The notes under the pieces were generated by a model that was not told where the DNA came from, searched no databases, and worked only from the letters and a program-made list of their open reading frames with translations. A program made the translations under genes and the position numbers. Shown here in pieces: positions 1 to 12,083 of a stretch of DNA of 20,346 nucleotides. Each line of letters begins with the position of its first letter. The first letter of the stretch is position 1. The DNA comes from a virus. The stretch spans positions 1-20,346 of IMG/VR virus record IMGVR_UViG_3300025138_000502; one strand, given 5' to 3'.

Positions 1-6
1 TTCATT

Positions 7-147
7 TTATTTTCCATAATTTATTAATCCTCTTACGTCTTTTTCATCAAAATCCCAGCGATTTAATATTTTATCTACAATTTCATTTTCAGAAAAACCC
101 TGTATTTCCCATTTATTTATTAATTCTACTATATATTCTACTAACAT
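7..147 (-). CDS. Small hypothetical protein (46 aa)
   Basis: This is an intact 46-codon frame starting MLVEYIVELINKWEIQ and ending GLINYGK before TAA. It is acidic and looks helical, with no motif I recognise. It starts 3 nt after the stop of the upstream 65-aa gene. Another ATG at position 5 follows its stop by one base, so the minus-strand unit continues past the left edge. The support is the tight packing and a plausible amino-acid composition; the function is unknown. Confidence 0.6.
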   Translation of the reverse strand: MLVEYIVELINKWEIQGFSENEIVDKILNRWDFDEKDVRGLINYGK

Positions 148-150
148 AAT

Positions 151-348
151 TTATTCATTTTTTAATAATTTAATTAATTCTTCATTACAAAGCATATGTC
201 TTGTTTGATTTGCAGTAAAATTATCAAGGTGTAGTATTTGTTGATCTAGTGATAATCCACCTTGCACAATCCGTTTGCTTATAAGATCCATTTTAGTTTG
301 TGCGTCATGCGCTACATTTCTTAATTCTTTAATTCTTTTTAATTTCAT
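151..348 (-). CDS. Small hypothetical helical protein (65 aa)
   Basis: A 65-aa charged protein, probably all helical (MKLKRIKELRNVAHDAQTKM... to LIKLLKNE), with no recognised domain. The start is well supported. The ATG overlaps the upstream gene's stop as ATGA, and GGAGGT lies about 5 nt before it, the only strong Shine-Dalgarno-like sequence seen in the window. Because GGAGGT also encodes Gly-Gly of the upstream gene, it may be coincidental. Translational coupling to the 42-aa membrane protein upstream is likely. Confidence 0.75.
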   Translation of the reverse strand: MKLKRIKELRNVAHDAQTKMDLISKRIVQGGLSLDQQILHLDNFTANQTRHMLCNEELIKLLKNE

Positions 349-473
349 ATCGCACCTCCAACATTAAAGGCTGTAAATTTATTTAAATATACGCCGTGAT
401 ACATAATAATAAATATACTTGGCAATATAAAAGTTAATGCAATAATTCTAATAGTCATTTCTAAGTTTTTCAT
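345..473 (-). CDS. Small single-pass membrane protein (42 aa)
   Basis: The frame encodes 42 aa beginning MKNLEMTIRIIALTFILPSI. Residues about 7-24 are a continuous hydrophobic stretch (IRIIALTFILPSIFIIM) that would span a membrane once, followed by a short polar tail. It is chained by ATGA overlaps at both ends: its start overlaps the stop of the 36-aa gene and its stop overlaps the start of the 65-aa gene. That nesting is strong evidence that this very short frame is translated. The role is unknown; a small early membrane effector is one possibility. Confidence 0.65.
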   Translation of the reverse strand: MKNLEMTIRIIALTFILPSIFIIMYHGVYLNKFTAFNVGGAI

Positions 474-580
474 TTTAATCCGTATTGTATTTTTAATTTA
501 TTTTTTGTTATATTTAATTGTTTACTTATTTCAGTTATACTTTTATTATCTAATAAGTATAATCTCCAAACTTTATGCAT
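470..580 (-). CDS. Mini helix-turn-helix-like protein (36 aa)
   Basis: The 36-aa product begins MHKVWRLYLLDNKSITEISK and continues QLNITKNKLK. The pattern (helix, 'SITEISKQLNIT' turn, second helix 'TKNKLKIQ') resembles the HTH of resolvase or sigma-like DNA-binding domains, but little else is present. Its start overlaps the end of the 104-aa gene by 8 nt and its TGA overlaps the next ATG, so it sits in a chain of overlapping genes. It could be a minimal DNA-binding protein or a decayed remnant of one. The HTH call is by eye. Confidence 0.6.
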   Translation of the reverse strand: MHKVWRLYLLDNKSITEISKQLNITKNKLKIQYGLK

Positions 581-887
581 TTGCATCTTCTTCTTGTAAT
601 TTCATTTCGGTATAATTTAATGCATCATTGTGATCGTGTAACAAATCCCATAGAGCGTTGTATCCTGCTTCGAACCAGTTATTTGCACGACCAAATATAT
701 GATGATCTTCAAATATATCTGCGTCTAATTCATTGCAATACTTTTTGCAATCATCTGTATATATTACTTTGTTTTCAAGCCATTGATGCATTTCTCTAGT
801 GAAATCATCGCTATCATTAATTGTACCATCGTGATACATTAACCATATATCGTCGTTAAACTCATATACTAAATCATCTCTATACAT
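573..887 (-). CDS. Highly acidic hypothetical protein (104 aa)
   Basis: A 104-aa protein with about 26 Asp/Glu against 7 Lys/Arg (hand count), rich in aromatic residues and His (for example IWLMYHDG, EDHHIFGRANNWFEAGYNALWDLLH). No catalytic motif or membrane segment is seen. Its start overlaps the upstream 63-aa gene by 8 nt. GC content is higher than in the genes from 1270 to 3130. Strong negative charge in a small phage protein is sometimes linked to DNA mimicry (Ocr, for example), but nothing specific here shows that. Confidence 0.8.
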   Translation of the reverse strand: MYRDDLVYEFNDDIWLMYHDGTINDSDDFTREMHQWLENKVIYTDDCKKYCNELDADIFEDHHIFGRANNWFEAGYNALWDLLHDHNDALNYTEMKLQEEDANA

Positions 888-1071
888 ATCTTATATAATT
901 TTTAATTGTTTCAATACTTGCTTTGTTGAAAGCTTTTACATTTTGTCTATACTTTTCATTTGTGCAATATTTTTTCATTGCTCTGGTTGTTGTACATTCA
1001 CCAAATCGATTTTCATGTATAGCAATTTGCTTTAACTTGTCGTCGATCATTTGTTTTGTTAATTGTATCAT
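880..1071 (-). CDS. Small basic hypothetical protein (63 aa), first gene of promoter-A unit
   Basis: A 63-aa Lys-rich protein (MIQLTKQMIDDKLKQIAIHE... ETIKNYIRYV) with two Cys (ECTT, KKYC) and a probable C-terminal helix. No family is recognised. It is the first gene downstream of the 40-bp promoter-like motif at 1082-1121; the ATG lies about 15 nt from the GATAAT block, implying a very short leader. It overlaps the next gene by 8 nt. Confidence 0.75.
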   Translation of the reverse strand: MIQLTKQMIDDKLKQIAIHENRFGECTTTRAMKKYCTNEKYRQNVKAFNKASIETIKNYIRYV

Positions 1072-1081
1072 ATTTATTTTA

Positions 1082-1121
1082 TTATATTATCACTTATTAA
1101 TTTTTTTTGTTGTGTACTTTT
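1082..1121 (-). promoter_or_regulatory. Promoter-like motif, copy A
   Basis: Read on the minus strand, this holds AAAAGTACACAACAAA, then GTGATAATATAA. GTACAC and GATAAT are separated by exactly 20 nt, as in copies B and C. The second block contains an extended -10-like TGATAATAT. It begins at the stop codon of the 46-aa gene and lies just upstream of the 63-aa gene, as expected of an internal promoter between two operons. No -35 matching TTGACA is present, so a phage-specific factor or activator site is possible. Confidence 0.7.
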
Positions 1122-1260
1122 AATTAAATAATTCACAACTTCCAGTTTTTCCCGGAGTTAATGTAATTGTTTCAAACTCTTCATTTGTTATTAAATTTTC
1201 CATTAAACCTAAATACTCTCTGGAAACATCTCTACCTGTTATTTTATTTATTATCATCAT
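1120..1260 (-). CDS. Small hypothetical protein (46 aa)
   Basis: The frame encodes 46 aa: MMIINKITGRDVSREYLGLM, a stretch NLITNEEFETITLTPGK, ending CELFN. The start may be either of two adjacent ATGs (1260 or 1257); both follow an AATAAATAAT leader. It appears to be the last gene of the promoter-B unit, since copy A of the promoter begins at its stop codon. No family is recognised. Confidence 0.6.
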   Translation of the reverse strand: MMIINKITGRDVSREYLGLMENLITNEEFETITLTPGKTGSCELFN

Positions 1261-1272
1261 ATTATTTATTTT

Positions 1273-1461
1273 TTATTTATTATTATATCTTTCATATTTT
1301 TTTAATGTTGAAAAGTTTATATCTAATTCTTTCATTAAATCAATTTGTTCATTAATTTCTTTTATTCTTTTGTTGTAATCAGATTTATACATTAATTCTT
1401 TAGAATTATTTACTTGTTCTAATAATGCTTCTAATCCTAAAATTATTAAATATTTATTCAT
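1273..1461 (-). CDS. Small coiled-coil-like protein (62 aa)
   Basis: A 62-aa protein (MNKYLIILGLEALLEQVNNS... NFSTLKKYERYNNK) with an amphipathic N-terminal helix and a second Lys/Glu-rich helix around residues 30-46, consistent with a short helical hairpin. It is preceded by AATAAATAATATG, the recurring SD-less leader of this block, and its ATG is one nt past the stop of the 101-aa gene. Function unknown. Confidence 0.7.
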   Translation of the reverse strand: MNKYLIILGLEALLEQVNNSKELMYKSDYNKRIKEINEQIDLMKELDINFSTLKKYERYNNK

Positions 1462-1462
1462 A

Positions 1463-1768
1463 TTATTTATTTGTATTTATAAATCTTTCAAAGATTTCAT
1501 GTAATTTATAAAAATCTTCCGGAGACAAATCTCCACTATCTAATTCAAAATCATCAACTATATTATTAAAATCAATATATTTATCTAAATCAAAATCATT
1601 TGAACTTTTTACTTTTGGTTCAATTTTTAAATATCTTTCTCTTATTGTTTCTTTCATATCTTCTAATTCCATATGAGATTGGATTTTTAAAAATTCCAAA
1701 TCTCTTGATGGATCATATTTTAAAATAAATTCTATTAATTCATTTCTTTCTATTTGTTCTTGTGTCAT
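1463..1768 (-). CDS. Acidic hypothetical protein (101 aa)
   Basis: A 101-aa acidic protein (about 26 Asp/Glu, 14 Lys/Arg by hand count), helical in the N-terminal half (MTQEQIERNELIEFILKYDP) with an Asp-rich middle (FDLDKYIDFNNIVDDFELD) and a C-terminal amphipathic helix (SPEDFYKLHEIFERF). No known domain is identified. It lies in the promoter-B unit, 4 nt after the preceding gene's stop and 1 nt before the next start. Confidence 0.75.
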   Translation of the reverse strand: MTQEQIERNELIEFILKYDPSRDLEFLKIQSHMELEDMKETIRERYLKIEPKVKSSNDFDLDKYIDFNNIVDDFELDSGDLSPEDFYKLHEIFERFINTNK

Positions 1769-1772
1769 ATTT

Positions 1773-1946
1773 TTATTTATTTATTTTGAAGTATAAACTT
1801 GATATTGTATCTTTTAATATTTTACCATGTAAATCATGATCCATATCATTATTATTATCTTTGAAATTTTCCCAAACTTCATTGTGTATTAAATCAAAAC
1901 AATCATTTATATGATTATTATATTTTTTTAATTCTTTTGTATTCAT
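1773..1946 (-). CDS. Small hypothetical protein (57 aa)
   Basis: A 57-aa frame (MNTKELKKYNNHINDCFDLI... to LYFKINK) with a run of Asn/Asp and His in the middle. The start follows an AAAAAATAAATAATATG context shared with neighbours, and lies 1 nt after the stop of the 39-aa gene upstream. Function unknown; the call rests on packing and the shared leader. Confidence 0.6.
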   Translation of the reverse strand: MNTKELKKYNNHINDCFDLIHNEVWENFKDNNNDMDHDLHGKILKDTISSLYFKINK

Positions 1947-1947
1947 A

Positions 1948-2067
1948 TTATTTATTTTTTAATTTTTTTATTTTCTTTTTTTGTTTTTTTATAATATCAT
2001 CTTGTTCAAGTATACAATGGACTAAATCATCTTTATCCCATTCCATAAATCTATTATATTCTGTCAT
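1948..2067 (-). CDS. Tiny protein with Lys-rich C-terminal helix (39 aa)
   Basis: The frame encodes 39 aa: MTEYNRFMEWDKDDLVHCIL, then an almost pure Lys/Ile/Leu tail (KKQKKKIKKLKNK). It has an acidic amphipathic N-terminal half and a basic tail that could form a coiled coil or bind nucleic acid. It is spaced one nt from the downstream ATG. I believe it is real because of the tight junction and non-random composition; function unknown. Confidence 0.6.
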   Translation of the reverse strand: MTEYNRFMEWDKDDLVHCILEQDDIIKKQKKKIKKLKNK

Positions 2068-2105
2068 AATTTTTATTTTTATAATTCTTTATATTTAACT
2101 TATTT

Positions 2106-2243
2106 TTATTCTTTTATATTTTTATTTAATTCATCTAATAAGTAACTTACATTTCTTAATCCATCTTCATCTTTTAAATCATTATAAAAATCATGTAAAT
2201 TTATTAATTCATCATAAATTCTTTTTAACATTTCATTACTCAT
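2106..2243 (-). CDS. Small acidic helical protein (45 aa)
   Basis: The frame encodes 45 aa (MSNEMLKRIYDELINLHDFY... LLDELNKNIKE), acidic and predicted by eye to be helical. It lies 3 nt after the 70-aa gene's stop. No family recognised. Confidence 0.6.
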   Translation of the reverse strand: MSNEMLKRIYDELINLHDFYNDLKDEDGLRNVSYLLDELNKNIKE

Positions 2244-2246
2244 ATT

Positions 2247-2459
2247 TTATTTTTTTAAATTTTCTATTTCTTCTAAAGTTGTATTTTCAATTTGATATAA
2301 CAAATCTTTAATTAAATCTTCATAATCTTCATTATCTTCTAAATCACATTCATTATAAACAAACATTTCTACACTTTCTTTCATTTTTTCATTTCCTTCA
2401 CTATGTTTTAATAGTTGAAAATAATCTAAAGTTTCTACATTCCAATGGAATTTTTTCAT
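2247..2459 (-). CDS. Acidic hypothetical protein (70 aa)
   Basis: A 70-aa acidic protein (MKKFHWNVETLDYFQLLKHS ... LEEIENLKK) with a Glu/Asp-rich C-terminal half (ECDLEDNEDYEDLIKDL). The start follows AAATTAAAAATATG without a Shine-Dalgarno sequence. It is a member of the promoter-B unit; no domain is recognised. Confidence 0.7.
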   Translation of the reverse strand: MKKFHWNVETLDYFQLLKHSEGNEKMKESVEMFVYNECDLEDNEDYEDLIKDLLYQIENTTLEEIENLKK

Positions 2460-2488
2460 ATTTTTAATTTAATTTATGTATAGCAATT

Positions 2489-2617
2489 TTATATATAATA
2501 AAGAATATGAATTCTTTCTTCTTCATTTAAATTATAATATTTTTTTAATTTATAACTTAATAATTCTTTATTCATATTTGAATTTTTATAACTTTTTATA
2601 ATTTTATTTATTTTCAT
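2489..2617 (-). CDS. Tiny basic protein (42 aa)
   Basis: The frame encodes 42 aa from ATG at 2617 (MKINKIIKSYKNSNMNKELL ... RIHILYYI). An in-frame internal ATG at 2575 would give a 28-aa version. Composition is Lys/Asn/Tyr/Ile-rich as expected for extreme AT content, so coding status is less certain than for its neighbours. It fills the gap between the 60-aa and 70-aa genes on the same strand. Confidence 0.45.
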   Translation of the reverse strand: MKINKIIKSYKNSNMNKELLSYKLKKYYNLNEEERIHILYYI

Positions 2618-2629
2618 TTTTATTTATTT

Positions 2630-2812
2630 TTATATATTATATATTAAACTTAATTCTAAATAACTTTTATAAAATTCTTTAACATTTTTATAATTTTTAA
2701 ATTCTAAATTAAAATCTTTAAAACCTAAATTTTTAATTAATTCAAAGTTTTTACTTTTATAATTATTATTATTTTTTAATTTATTTAATTCACTTTTTAG
2801 AAATTTATTCAT
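2630..2812 (-). CDS. Small Lys/Asn-rich protein (60 aa), first gene of promoter-B unit
   Basis: A 60-aa Lys/Asn/Phe-rich protein (MNKFLKSELNKLKNNNNYKS ... SYLELSLIYNI). It is the first gene downstream of promoter-like copy B, with the ATG about 48 nt past the GATAAT block. AT content is extreme. No domain is recognised. Confidence 0.6.
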   Translation of the reverse strand: MNKFLKSELNKLKNNNNYKSKNFELIKNLGFKDFNLEFKNYKNVKEFYKSYLELSLIYNI

Positions 2813-2855
2813 TTTATTATATTTTATTTTATTATTATTTATATTTTATTTACAA

Positions 2856-2895
2856 TTATATTATCACTTTTTTATATACTTTGTAGTGTACTTTT
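2856..2895 (-). promoter_or_regulatory. Promoter-like motif, copy B
   Basis: On the minus strand it reads AAAAGTACACTACAAA followed by GTGATAATATAA, with 20 nt between GTACAC and GATAAT, identical in spacing to copies A and C. It sits in the 92-nt gap between the 75-aa gene and the 60-aa gene and would transcribe the genes from 2812 down to about 1120. Confidence 0.7.
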
Positions 2896-2904
2896 TTATA
2901 TTAT

Positions 2905-3132
2905 TTATATATTATTTAAAGTAGAATTTTGTATATATTTTTTATTTATAAATGTTAAACCTTTTAAGTTAAATTCTATAACATTTTCAATTTGTAATTT
3001 ATCTTTTAATTTTATATTTTGTAAATCATTTATTAAAAATCCAAAGTAAATATTATTTTTTAATTTTAATTTTTTAATTTTTAATATTTTAGAAATATAG
3101 TGATTTGTTTTTAAGTTTTTTAAATTTGACAT
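2905..3132 (-). CDS. Small Lys/Asn/Ile-rich protein (75 aa), first minus-strand gene
   Basis: A 75-aa protein rich in Lys, Asn, Ile and Leu (MSNLKNLKTNHYISKILKIK ... IQNSTLNNI). The middle and end (IYFGFLINDLQNIKLKD, VIEFNLKGLTFI) suggest beta strands. It lies directly downstream of promoter-like copy C, with the ATG about 46 nt from the GATAAT block, and seems to be a single-gene unit because copy B follows it. No family is recognised. Confidence 0.6.
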   Translation of the reverse strand: MSNLKNLKTNHYISKILKIKKLKLKNNIYFGFLINDLQNIKLKDKLQIENVIEFNLKGLTFINKKYIQNSTLNNI

Positions 3133-3173
3133 TTTATATTTTTTTATTAAGATTATTATTATTTTAATTACAC

Positions 3174-3213
3174 TTATATTATCACAATATATATATATTT
3201 GTTGTGTACTTTT
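3174..3213 (-). promoter_or_regulatory. Promoter-like motif, copy C
   Basis: On the minus strand it reads AAAAGTACACAACAAA followed by GTGATAATATAA, with 20 nt between GTACAC and GATAAT. It is the outermost of three copies, at the edge of the divergent intergenic region, and would drive the 75-aa gene. Confidence 0.7.
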
Positions 3214-3436
3214 TATTAAATATATATAAATATTATTAAAATGTCACAAATTATAAATATTGCACTATATTATATATATATATAAATATAACTTAAGTAA
3301 TATAAAGTATTATCATTATATTATTAATAAATATTAATAAACATTGAATATATGATAATGTAAAGTAAATACTATATTATATTAATATATATTATTGTTA
3401 TATATATGTATAATCCAATAGATATATGTATATAAT

Positions 3437-3481
3437 GTGATAAAATGTAGTAATTGTTGTTAATATGATGATAATAACTAT
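3437..3481 (+). repeat. Degenerate direct repeat, unit 1
   Basis: The unit has GTGATAAA, four variable bases, AGTAATTGTT, two variable bases, TAA, a variable stretch, and AACTAT at its end. Unit 2 at 3539-3582 has the same blocks in the same order with equal spacing over the first 22 nt (18 of 22 identical). Unit starts are 102 bp apart. Confidence 0.6.
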
Positions 3482-3488
3482 AAATCTT

Positions 3489-3533
3489 TGACAATGTAAC
3501 AATATATTGTAATAAAATGTATGTGCATTGTCA
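3489..3533. repeat. Inverted repeat enclosing a palindrome
   Basis: TGACAATG (3489-3496) and CATTGTCA (3526-3533) are perfect 8-bp inverted arms. Between them lies the perfect 12-bp palindrome ACAATATATTGT (3499-3510). The whole sits between the two direct repeat units, which makes a protein-binding or initiation site plausible. Confidence 0.55.
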
Positions 3534-3538
3534 TATAT

Positions 3539-3582
3539 GTGATAAATATAAGTAATTGTTACTAAATTAGTAGAAAAACTAT
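3539..3582 (+). repeat. Degenerate direct repeat, unit 2
   Basis: This is the second copy of the unit at 3437-3481, with GTGATAAA, AGTAATTGTT, TAA and AACTAT in the same order. It is one base shorter overall. Confidence 0.6.
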
Positions 3583-3668
3583 GTGTTTATTATCATATAT
3601 GGGGCATATTTTATATTGACTTTTCTATATACTTGGTTATCAAATACATATATGTAATACAAAACCTC

Positions 3669-3676
3669 TATATTTG
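3669..3676 (+). promoter_or_regulatory. Possible Bacteroidota-type -7 element
   Basis: TATATTTG matches the Bacteroidota -7 consensus TAnnTTTG exactly and lies 17 nt before the ATG of the first plus-strand gene. No clear -33 TTTG is present at the usual distance upstream, so this is weak. Confidence 0.25.
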
Positions 3677-3693
3677 AAATACTTATAATTACT

Positions 3694-3933
3694 ATGGCAG
3701 ATACATTTATTAAGAACAACCTTTCTGTTGTACTATCTTTATCTTTAGCTGTATTTACTGCAGGTGGTATATTTGCGGAGTTTACGGCTATTAAGAATGA
3801 GCTTACGACTGTGCATGATAGGTTAGATAAGAAGATAGTTGTGATAGGAGGTCTTGAGGACAGGCTATTACAGATAGAGAAACAACTAGAATACGAGCGT
3901 GGCTTTTTAGAGGCTGCGGCAAAAAAGAGATAG
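3694..3933 (+). CDS. Small membrane-anchored coiled-coil protein (79 aa)
   Basis: A 79-aa protein with a hydrophobic segment at about residues 10-30 (LSVVLSLSLAVFTAGGIFAE) and a charged helical heptad-like region at 31-72 (ELTTVHDRLDKK, LEDRLLQIEKQLEYERG). The topology, one transmembrane helix plus a coiled coil, is seen in phage spanin-like and holin-accessory proteins. No endolysin is present nearby, so a lysis role is inference. It is the first gene of the plus-strand block; the start lacks a Shine-Dalgarno sequence. The next gene begins 1 nt after its stop. Confidence 0.8.
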   Translation: MADTFIKNNLSVVLSLSLAVFTAGGIFAEFTAIKNELTTVHDRLDKKIVVIGGLEDRLLQIEKQLEYERGFLEAAAKKR

Positions 3934-11933: not shown

Positions 11934-12083
11934 ATGGCAGATATAAATACTTTTTATGCACCAGCTAGAGCAGTAGATGATCAAAACTCTGCTAGCGATT
12001 CTTTAATATGGACGGGTACTGCCGCACAATATGCAGCAATTGGGTCTAAAGACGCTAACACACTTTATTTTGTAACAGCTTAA
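11934..12083 (+). CDS. Small fibre-associated protein with WxGTxAQY motif (49 aa)
   Basis: The frame encodes 49 aa: MADINTFYAPARAVDDQNSA, SDSLIWTGTA, AQYAAIGSKDANTLYFVTA. The second half is a compact motif (W-T-G-T-A-A-Q-Y-A-A...K-D-A-N-T-L-Y-F-V-T) known from phage tail-fibre proteins as WxGTxxQYxAxxxxDxxTLYxVT. The same motif, interrupted by an insertion, occurs in the gene at 13043. It starts 3 nt after the previous stop and ends one nt before the next ATG. Confidence 0.75.
   Translation: MADINTFYAPARAVDDQNSASDSLIWTGTAAQYAAIGSKDANTLYFVTA

Follow-up and report, generated by a model that had tools for sequence, protein, structure and literature searches.

Class I, a bipartite motif that by sequence comparison is restricted to phages, with a fixed 12-nt spacer and a single orientation, very probably provides the promoters of an early/replication gene block in the phage group described here. 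The window, i.e., the whole stretch of 20,346 bases that we analysed, is identical to its record and represents a fragment of a marine phage; it carries three copies of the motif. A second motif, class II, was found there on the opposite strand. We infer that class II sites are promoters as well, probably read by a sigma factor that the phages themselves encode.

Class I copies in the window

The earlier note had described three minus-strand copies of GTACAC-N20-GATAAT, and exactly these three matches were recovered, on the minus strand only (Table 1). All are exact copies of AAAAGTACACWACAAA-N12-GTGATAATATAA, agreeing at 27 of 27 fixed positions, while position 11 is A or T. Fixed bases also occur outside the two blocks that had been noted, with AAAA before GTACAC and ACAAA after it, and the shared format reads AAAAGTACAC-W-ACAAA, 12 variable bases, GTGATAATATAA. 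Hence, the truly variable spacer comprises only the 12 nt from ACAAA to GTGATAAT. The recurrence of blocks at fixed spacing withstood a chance control on the minus strand of window positions 1–3700: five fixed-gap pairs of 6-mers with at least four G/C recurred three times, compared with none, nor anything comparable, in 100 block-wise dinucleotide shuffles. Over the entire record, a one-mismatch scan of the two six-base blocks yielded nothing beyond the three copies, and the reversed-pattern control had 0 matches.

As the earlier note stated, each copy lies upstream of a same-strand gene, and copy A coincides with the stop codon of the preceding unit. From copy A, the predicted leader would be only ~6–10 nt long, a point against the promoter reading.

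Table 1. Positions of the motif copies and neighbouring features in the window
Feature	Position	Strand	Remarks
Class I copy A	1082..1121 (reads 1121 to 1082)	-	ATG of 63-aa ORF 10 nt downstream
Class I copy B	2856..2895	-	ATG of 60-aa ORF 43 nt downstream
Class I copy C, at the divergent region and predicted to be the first early promoter	3174..3213	-	ATG of 75-aa ORF 41 nt downstream
63-aa ORF downstream of copy A	880..1071	-	ATG at 1071; conserved in G001
60-aa ORF downstream of copy B	2630..2812	-	ATG at 2812
75-aa ORF (MSNLKNLKTNHY...) downstream of copy C	2905..3132	-	ATG at 3132; conserved behind class I in G001, G002, G004, G010 and others
46-aa ORF	1120..1260	-	TAA stop (1120-1122) overlaps first two bases of copy A
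Class II motif TGTCAC-N12-TTGCACTATATTAT	3242..3273	+	28 nt from copy C in back-to-back arrangement, toward late genes
AT-rich region, class II to first late ORF (ATG at 3694)	3274..3693	+	possible long leader, patchily conserved

The class I family and its phages

Because the record is a fragment identical to the window, the genome-wide test was moved to relatives. Relatives of the GroEL protein (83–98% identical) led to longer IMG/VR contigs, namely G001 (68 kb), G002, G003 and G004. In G001, one strand encodes an ERF annealing protein, an exonuclease, a primase-helicase and ribonucleotide reductase, together with a gene that on inspection looks ligase-like, whereas the structural genes are on the opposite strand; we assigned the terms early and late from gene content and strand. 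The G001 portal protein is at most 51% identical to those of Flavobacterium, Cellulophaga, Maribacter and Tenacibaculum phages and of one uncultured phage genome. Shine-Dalgarno-like sequences precede only 1 of 31 gene starts in the window and 2 of 74 in G001, and an A occupies position -3 in 23/31 and 50/74 starts, respectively. Gene starts of Flavobacterium johnsoniae show the same pattern, with A at -3 and without Shine-Dalgarno sequences (PMC6847099). Together, relatives and gene-start signals point to a likely Bacteroidota host. The phage is podovirus-like, and its closest named relatives infect Bacteroidota; megablast of the right part of the window against phage records gave no match.

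Homologous portal proteins (38–51% identity), GroEL/GroES genes and oppositely transcribed gene blocks are shared with Callevirus (phi38:1), Elemovirus, Maribacter phage Panino and Caudoviricetes MW202828. Neither class I nor a relative of the sigma factor was detectable in MW202828, Panino, phi38:1 and elemoF, and class II was absent from MW202828 and Panino, the two scanned for it. In Cellulophaga phage phi38:1 (L167), nine minus-strand occurrences of AAACACTATCAAA lie between positions 11974 and 29674, at gene boundaries and often a short way ahead of an ATG, and may represent a gene-start signal.

The earlier note had read the motif as a phage promoter and proposed that relatives be scanned for same-strand copies upstream of genes. 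Our scan supports this reading: the class I family comprises 119 copies of RTACRYWACAAA-N12-GTGATAATATAA in 41 contigs (42 loci, 679,511 bases), situated in the early/replication gene block on one strand per contig, in most cases 10–45 nt before an ORF start. Not one of the 28 loci with at least two copies carries them on both strands. Scores show a clear gap from 21 to 22, the 119 copies reaching 22–26 of a maximum of 26 and just seven sites 20 or 21. The number of copies is no census, since the contigs, metagenomic throughout and mostly fragments, were largely gathered by motif search; a looser pattern search had returned 36 stretches in viral contigs. The scan demanded the 12-nt spacer; under that constraint, positions are sharply defined: GTGATAATATAA is almost invariant, as are TAC and ACAAA of the upstream block.

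Positions 9–10 are AC in the window, G001, G002, G004, G009 and others, and GT elsewhere. The type is uniform within multi-copy contigs, with the exceptions of MED657b and one ATACGC copy in 25608_26. A change running in parallel through so many sites would be expected from one reader acting in trans. We discarded an RNA hairpin between the blocks, because the upstream block goes from AC to GT and the downstream block remains constant.

Ahead of the ERF gene, both class I blocks are present in G001, G004, G022, G024 and G025, with a -10 block that in most carriers is slightly degraded, since it overlaps an ORF start; at the same site, neither block is found in G015, G020, G021 and G023, and the flanking genes are conserved. 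At this site, the two blocks are gained or lost together, as a unit. Another group of copies sits in codons 2–14 of a short ORF, where GTACAC encodes the peptide KSTQQ and ATACGT the peptide KNTLQ. The peptide thus shifts with the motif variant, which argues that the DNA motif is kept, not the peptide. In G001, this short ORF, with N-terminal codons coinciding with a class I site, lies at L015 19065–19169, and orthologues occur.

Among 84,980 host species genomes, an exact scan, which would miss degenerate host sites, found only four class I stretches. Three of the four belong to metagenome-assembled bins, and one bin contig, L164, also bears a class II site and the gene for the phage sigma. 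L163, L164 and L165, from assemblies labelled Rickettsiales MED657 and Flavobacteriales, carry class I and appear to be phage contigs that ended up in bins together with hosts.

Class II and the phage sigma factor

In G001, G004 and G015, the early block includes a gene for a 258-aa protein of the sigma-70 family; the window is a fragment without this gene. The protein matches phrog_351 (E 6.7e-10), and both regions 2 and 4 of the family were recognised: the match to Sigma70_r2 is weak, below the Pfam cut-off in five of nine members, and region 4 aligns with that of SigA in a profile comparison (E 2.5e-4). A single-sequence structure model was useless, and a nine-sequence alignment gave a partial, low-confidence model for which the top Foldseek matches were nearly all sigma factors, at E >0.001. 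Two lineages, sigma-A and sigma-B, the latter encoded in L130 and L132/L137, are ~28% identical and differ in their recognition helices.

In the window, the class II motif was the sole match in the scan, with none expected by chance. Class II-A, with the consensus TGTCMC-N12-TTGCACTATWWTAT, is found in the divergent region and a second time immediately after the sigma gene, where L120 has only a degenerate version. A further group of contigs has class II-B, WTATACY-N12-TATGTAATATAT, in the divergent region, and in L130 and L132/L137 this version also directly follows the sigma-B gene. The class II site behind sigma precedes the genes for ERF and exonuclease. Class I is unchanged in both sigma lineages, while class II differs in sequence at the same two places. 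We examined the predicted association in 13 further contigs, ten with II-B and three with II-A in the divergent region. All four II-B contigs with sigma in reach encoded sigma-B, with class II-B located at the stop codon of the sigma gene or just past it; the other nine, mostly short fragments, had no sigma match. As class II tracks the sigma lineage, its probable reader is the phage sigma, although one deep split underlies this association, which hence could reflect common descent. The earlier note's alternative of an activator or a phage sigma factor therefore stands in part: relatives do encode such a sigma, but it is class II and not class I that follows its lineage, making an activator or other shared factor the better guess for class I.

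Sigma-factor cascades of phages, of the T4 gp55 and SPO1 gp28 types, offer a parallel. As in those systems, the early/replication block houses a phage gene of the sigma-70 family, and class II offers conserved sites oriented toward late genes; in contrast, both known class II sites, whose function is predicted, are linked to either the sigma gene or the divergent region, and their sequence varies with the sigma lineage. Class II is positioned ~420 nt before the first late gene and would thus imply a long leader. At ~3600–3693 on the plus strand, just before the first late ORF, a block TTATCAnATACATATnTGTAATACAAAACCTCTATAT is conserved in 7/7 aligned relatives and may be a control site. Discovery by 6-mer pairs, which as a control found class I again in G001 and G015, detected no recurrent motif on the late strand.

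Possible readers of class I

We consider it somewhat more probable that class I is read by something other than the phage sigma, and the reader is probably host RNA polymerase with such a further factor. An RNA polymerase holoenzyme would bind GTGATAATATAA as the -10 region, assisted by a protein that touches RTACRYWACAAA at about -40 to -28, and transcription would begin just past the motif. Class I promoters would then drive the early block including sigma, and sigma would activate class II promoters for the late genes as well as for the recombination/replication genes behind its own gene. That some class I copies overlap coding sequence is unusual for promoters and counts against this model. 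As a common class I reader, a helix-turn-helix ORF of 39–40 aa was rejected, with no homologue in G004 or G015. This ORF (window 473–589, minus strand, SITEISKQLNITKNKLK) weakly resembles sigma region 4 (E 0.054) and occurs in G001, G002 and three II-B contigs. Sequence search alone revealed no convincing DxDxD of a virion RNA polymerase (crAss-like/N4) in giant ORFs and no polymerase match for the 2665-aa protein.

Class I might instead be read directly by the phage sigma, with region 2 on GTGATAATATAA and region 4 on RTACRYWACAAA, which would render early expression autocatalytic. Sigma and class I indeed occur in the same clade, and the four cultured relatives lack both; TAATAT is common to class I and II-B at equal distance behind the 12-nt spacer, and within sigma-A, the AC-type G001 and G004 differ from the GT type in the region of the recognition helix. 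However, class I stays the same despite such divergent sigmas with different recognition helices, it is class II, physically linked to sigma, that differs, and the AC/GT change in class I comes without a change in class II-A, so that direct reading by sigma appears rather unlikely. We judge it similarly unlikely, if not slightly more so, that class I is an immediate-early promoter for the unmodified host holoenzyme, with a primary or alternative sigma and no phage factor. Early genes need a host-readable promoter, no Bacteroidota consensus site lies upstream of them, and the motif is common to very different phages; yet class I is without the TTTG/TAnnTTTG of the Bacteroidota primary sigma, and its exact form is almost absent from host genomes (degenerate sites being missed). 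A site for binding or processing other than a promoter, be it an operator, a replication site or an RNA processing signal, would accommodate the many copies, some overlapping coding sequence or stop codons, and the AT-rich divergent region beside copy C could have a replication role. The strict single orientation, the position just before genes and the lack of any Rfam match within the window argue against it, and we regard it as very improbable.

The upstream element is non-standard, as the earlier note held. The Bacteroidota sigma-ABfr promoter has TTTG at -33 and TAnnTTTG at -7 (PMC7366714, PMC6847099), and position frequencies over the 119 copies show TTTG neither at -33 nor at the -7 end; likeness is confined to the T-A start of a -10-type element in TAATAT. 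Conserved TTTG-N17-21-TAnnTTTG sites were absent at early gene starts. Likewise, the TTGACA of E. coli-type sigma-70 promoters (TTGACA/TATAAT, 16–18 nt spacing) is missing, the -10-like element is GATAAT (5/6 positions) or TGn-TAATAT (4/6 positions), and a scan with the sigma-70 consensus missed all three copies. T4 middle promoters place the MotA box (a/t)(a/t)(a/t)TGCTTtA ~12 bp before a sigma-70 -10 and depend on sigma appropriation (PMC2988021). Class I shares with them a phage box around -30 that stands a short, fixed distance from a host-like and often extended (TGn) -10, many copies upstream of pre-replicative/replication genes, and a -10 better kept than the box. In contrast to T4, however, the box is RTACRYWACAAA, and the host polymerase is of a different type. 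As class I matches neither the MotA box nor the Bacteroidota consensus, we claim no membership in either class.

Our literature search found no paper on these motifs or on transcription signals of this phage group; the class II motif and its sigma link are new here and go beyond the earlier note. Taken together, class I and class II suggest that phages of Bacteroidota-type bacteria express their genes in a programme of two steps. It is plausible, though less likely than not, that sigma and its two class II promoters form a self-linked cassette that has been exchanged as a whole, with class I constant across distant phages and read by a phage factor that redirects the Bacteroidota RNA polymerase. 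A near-invariant short putative promoter with more than 100 natural examples, along with a sigma with two target sets, renders sigma–DNA specificity testable. In metagenomes, both motifs also serve as markers of phage contigs and their early blocks, and class I and II could provide promoters for flavobacteria genetics. Bacteroidota polymerase uses unusual promoters, and its takeover by phages now becomes directly testable.
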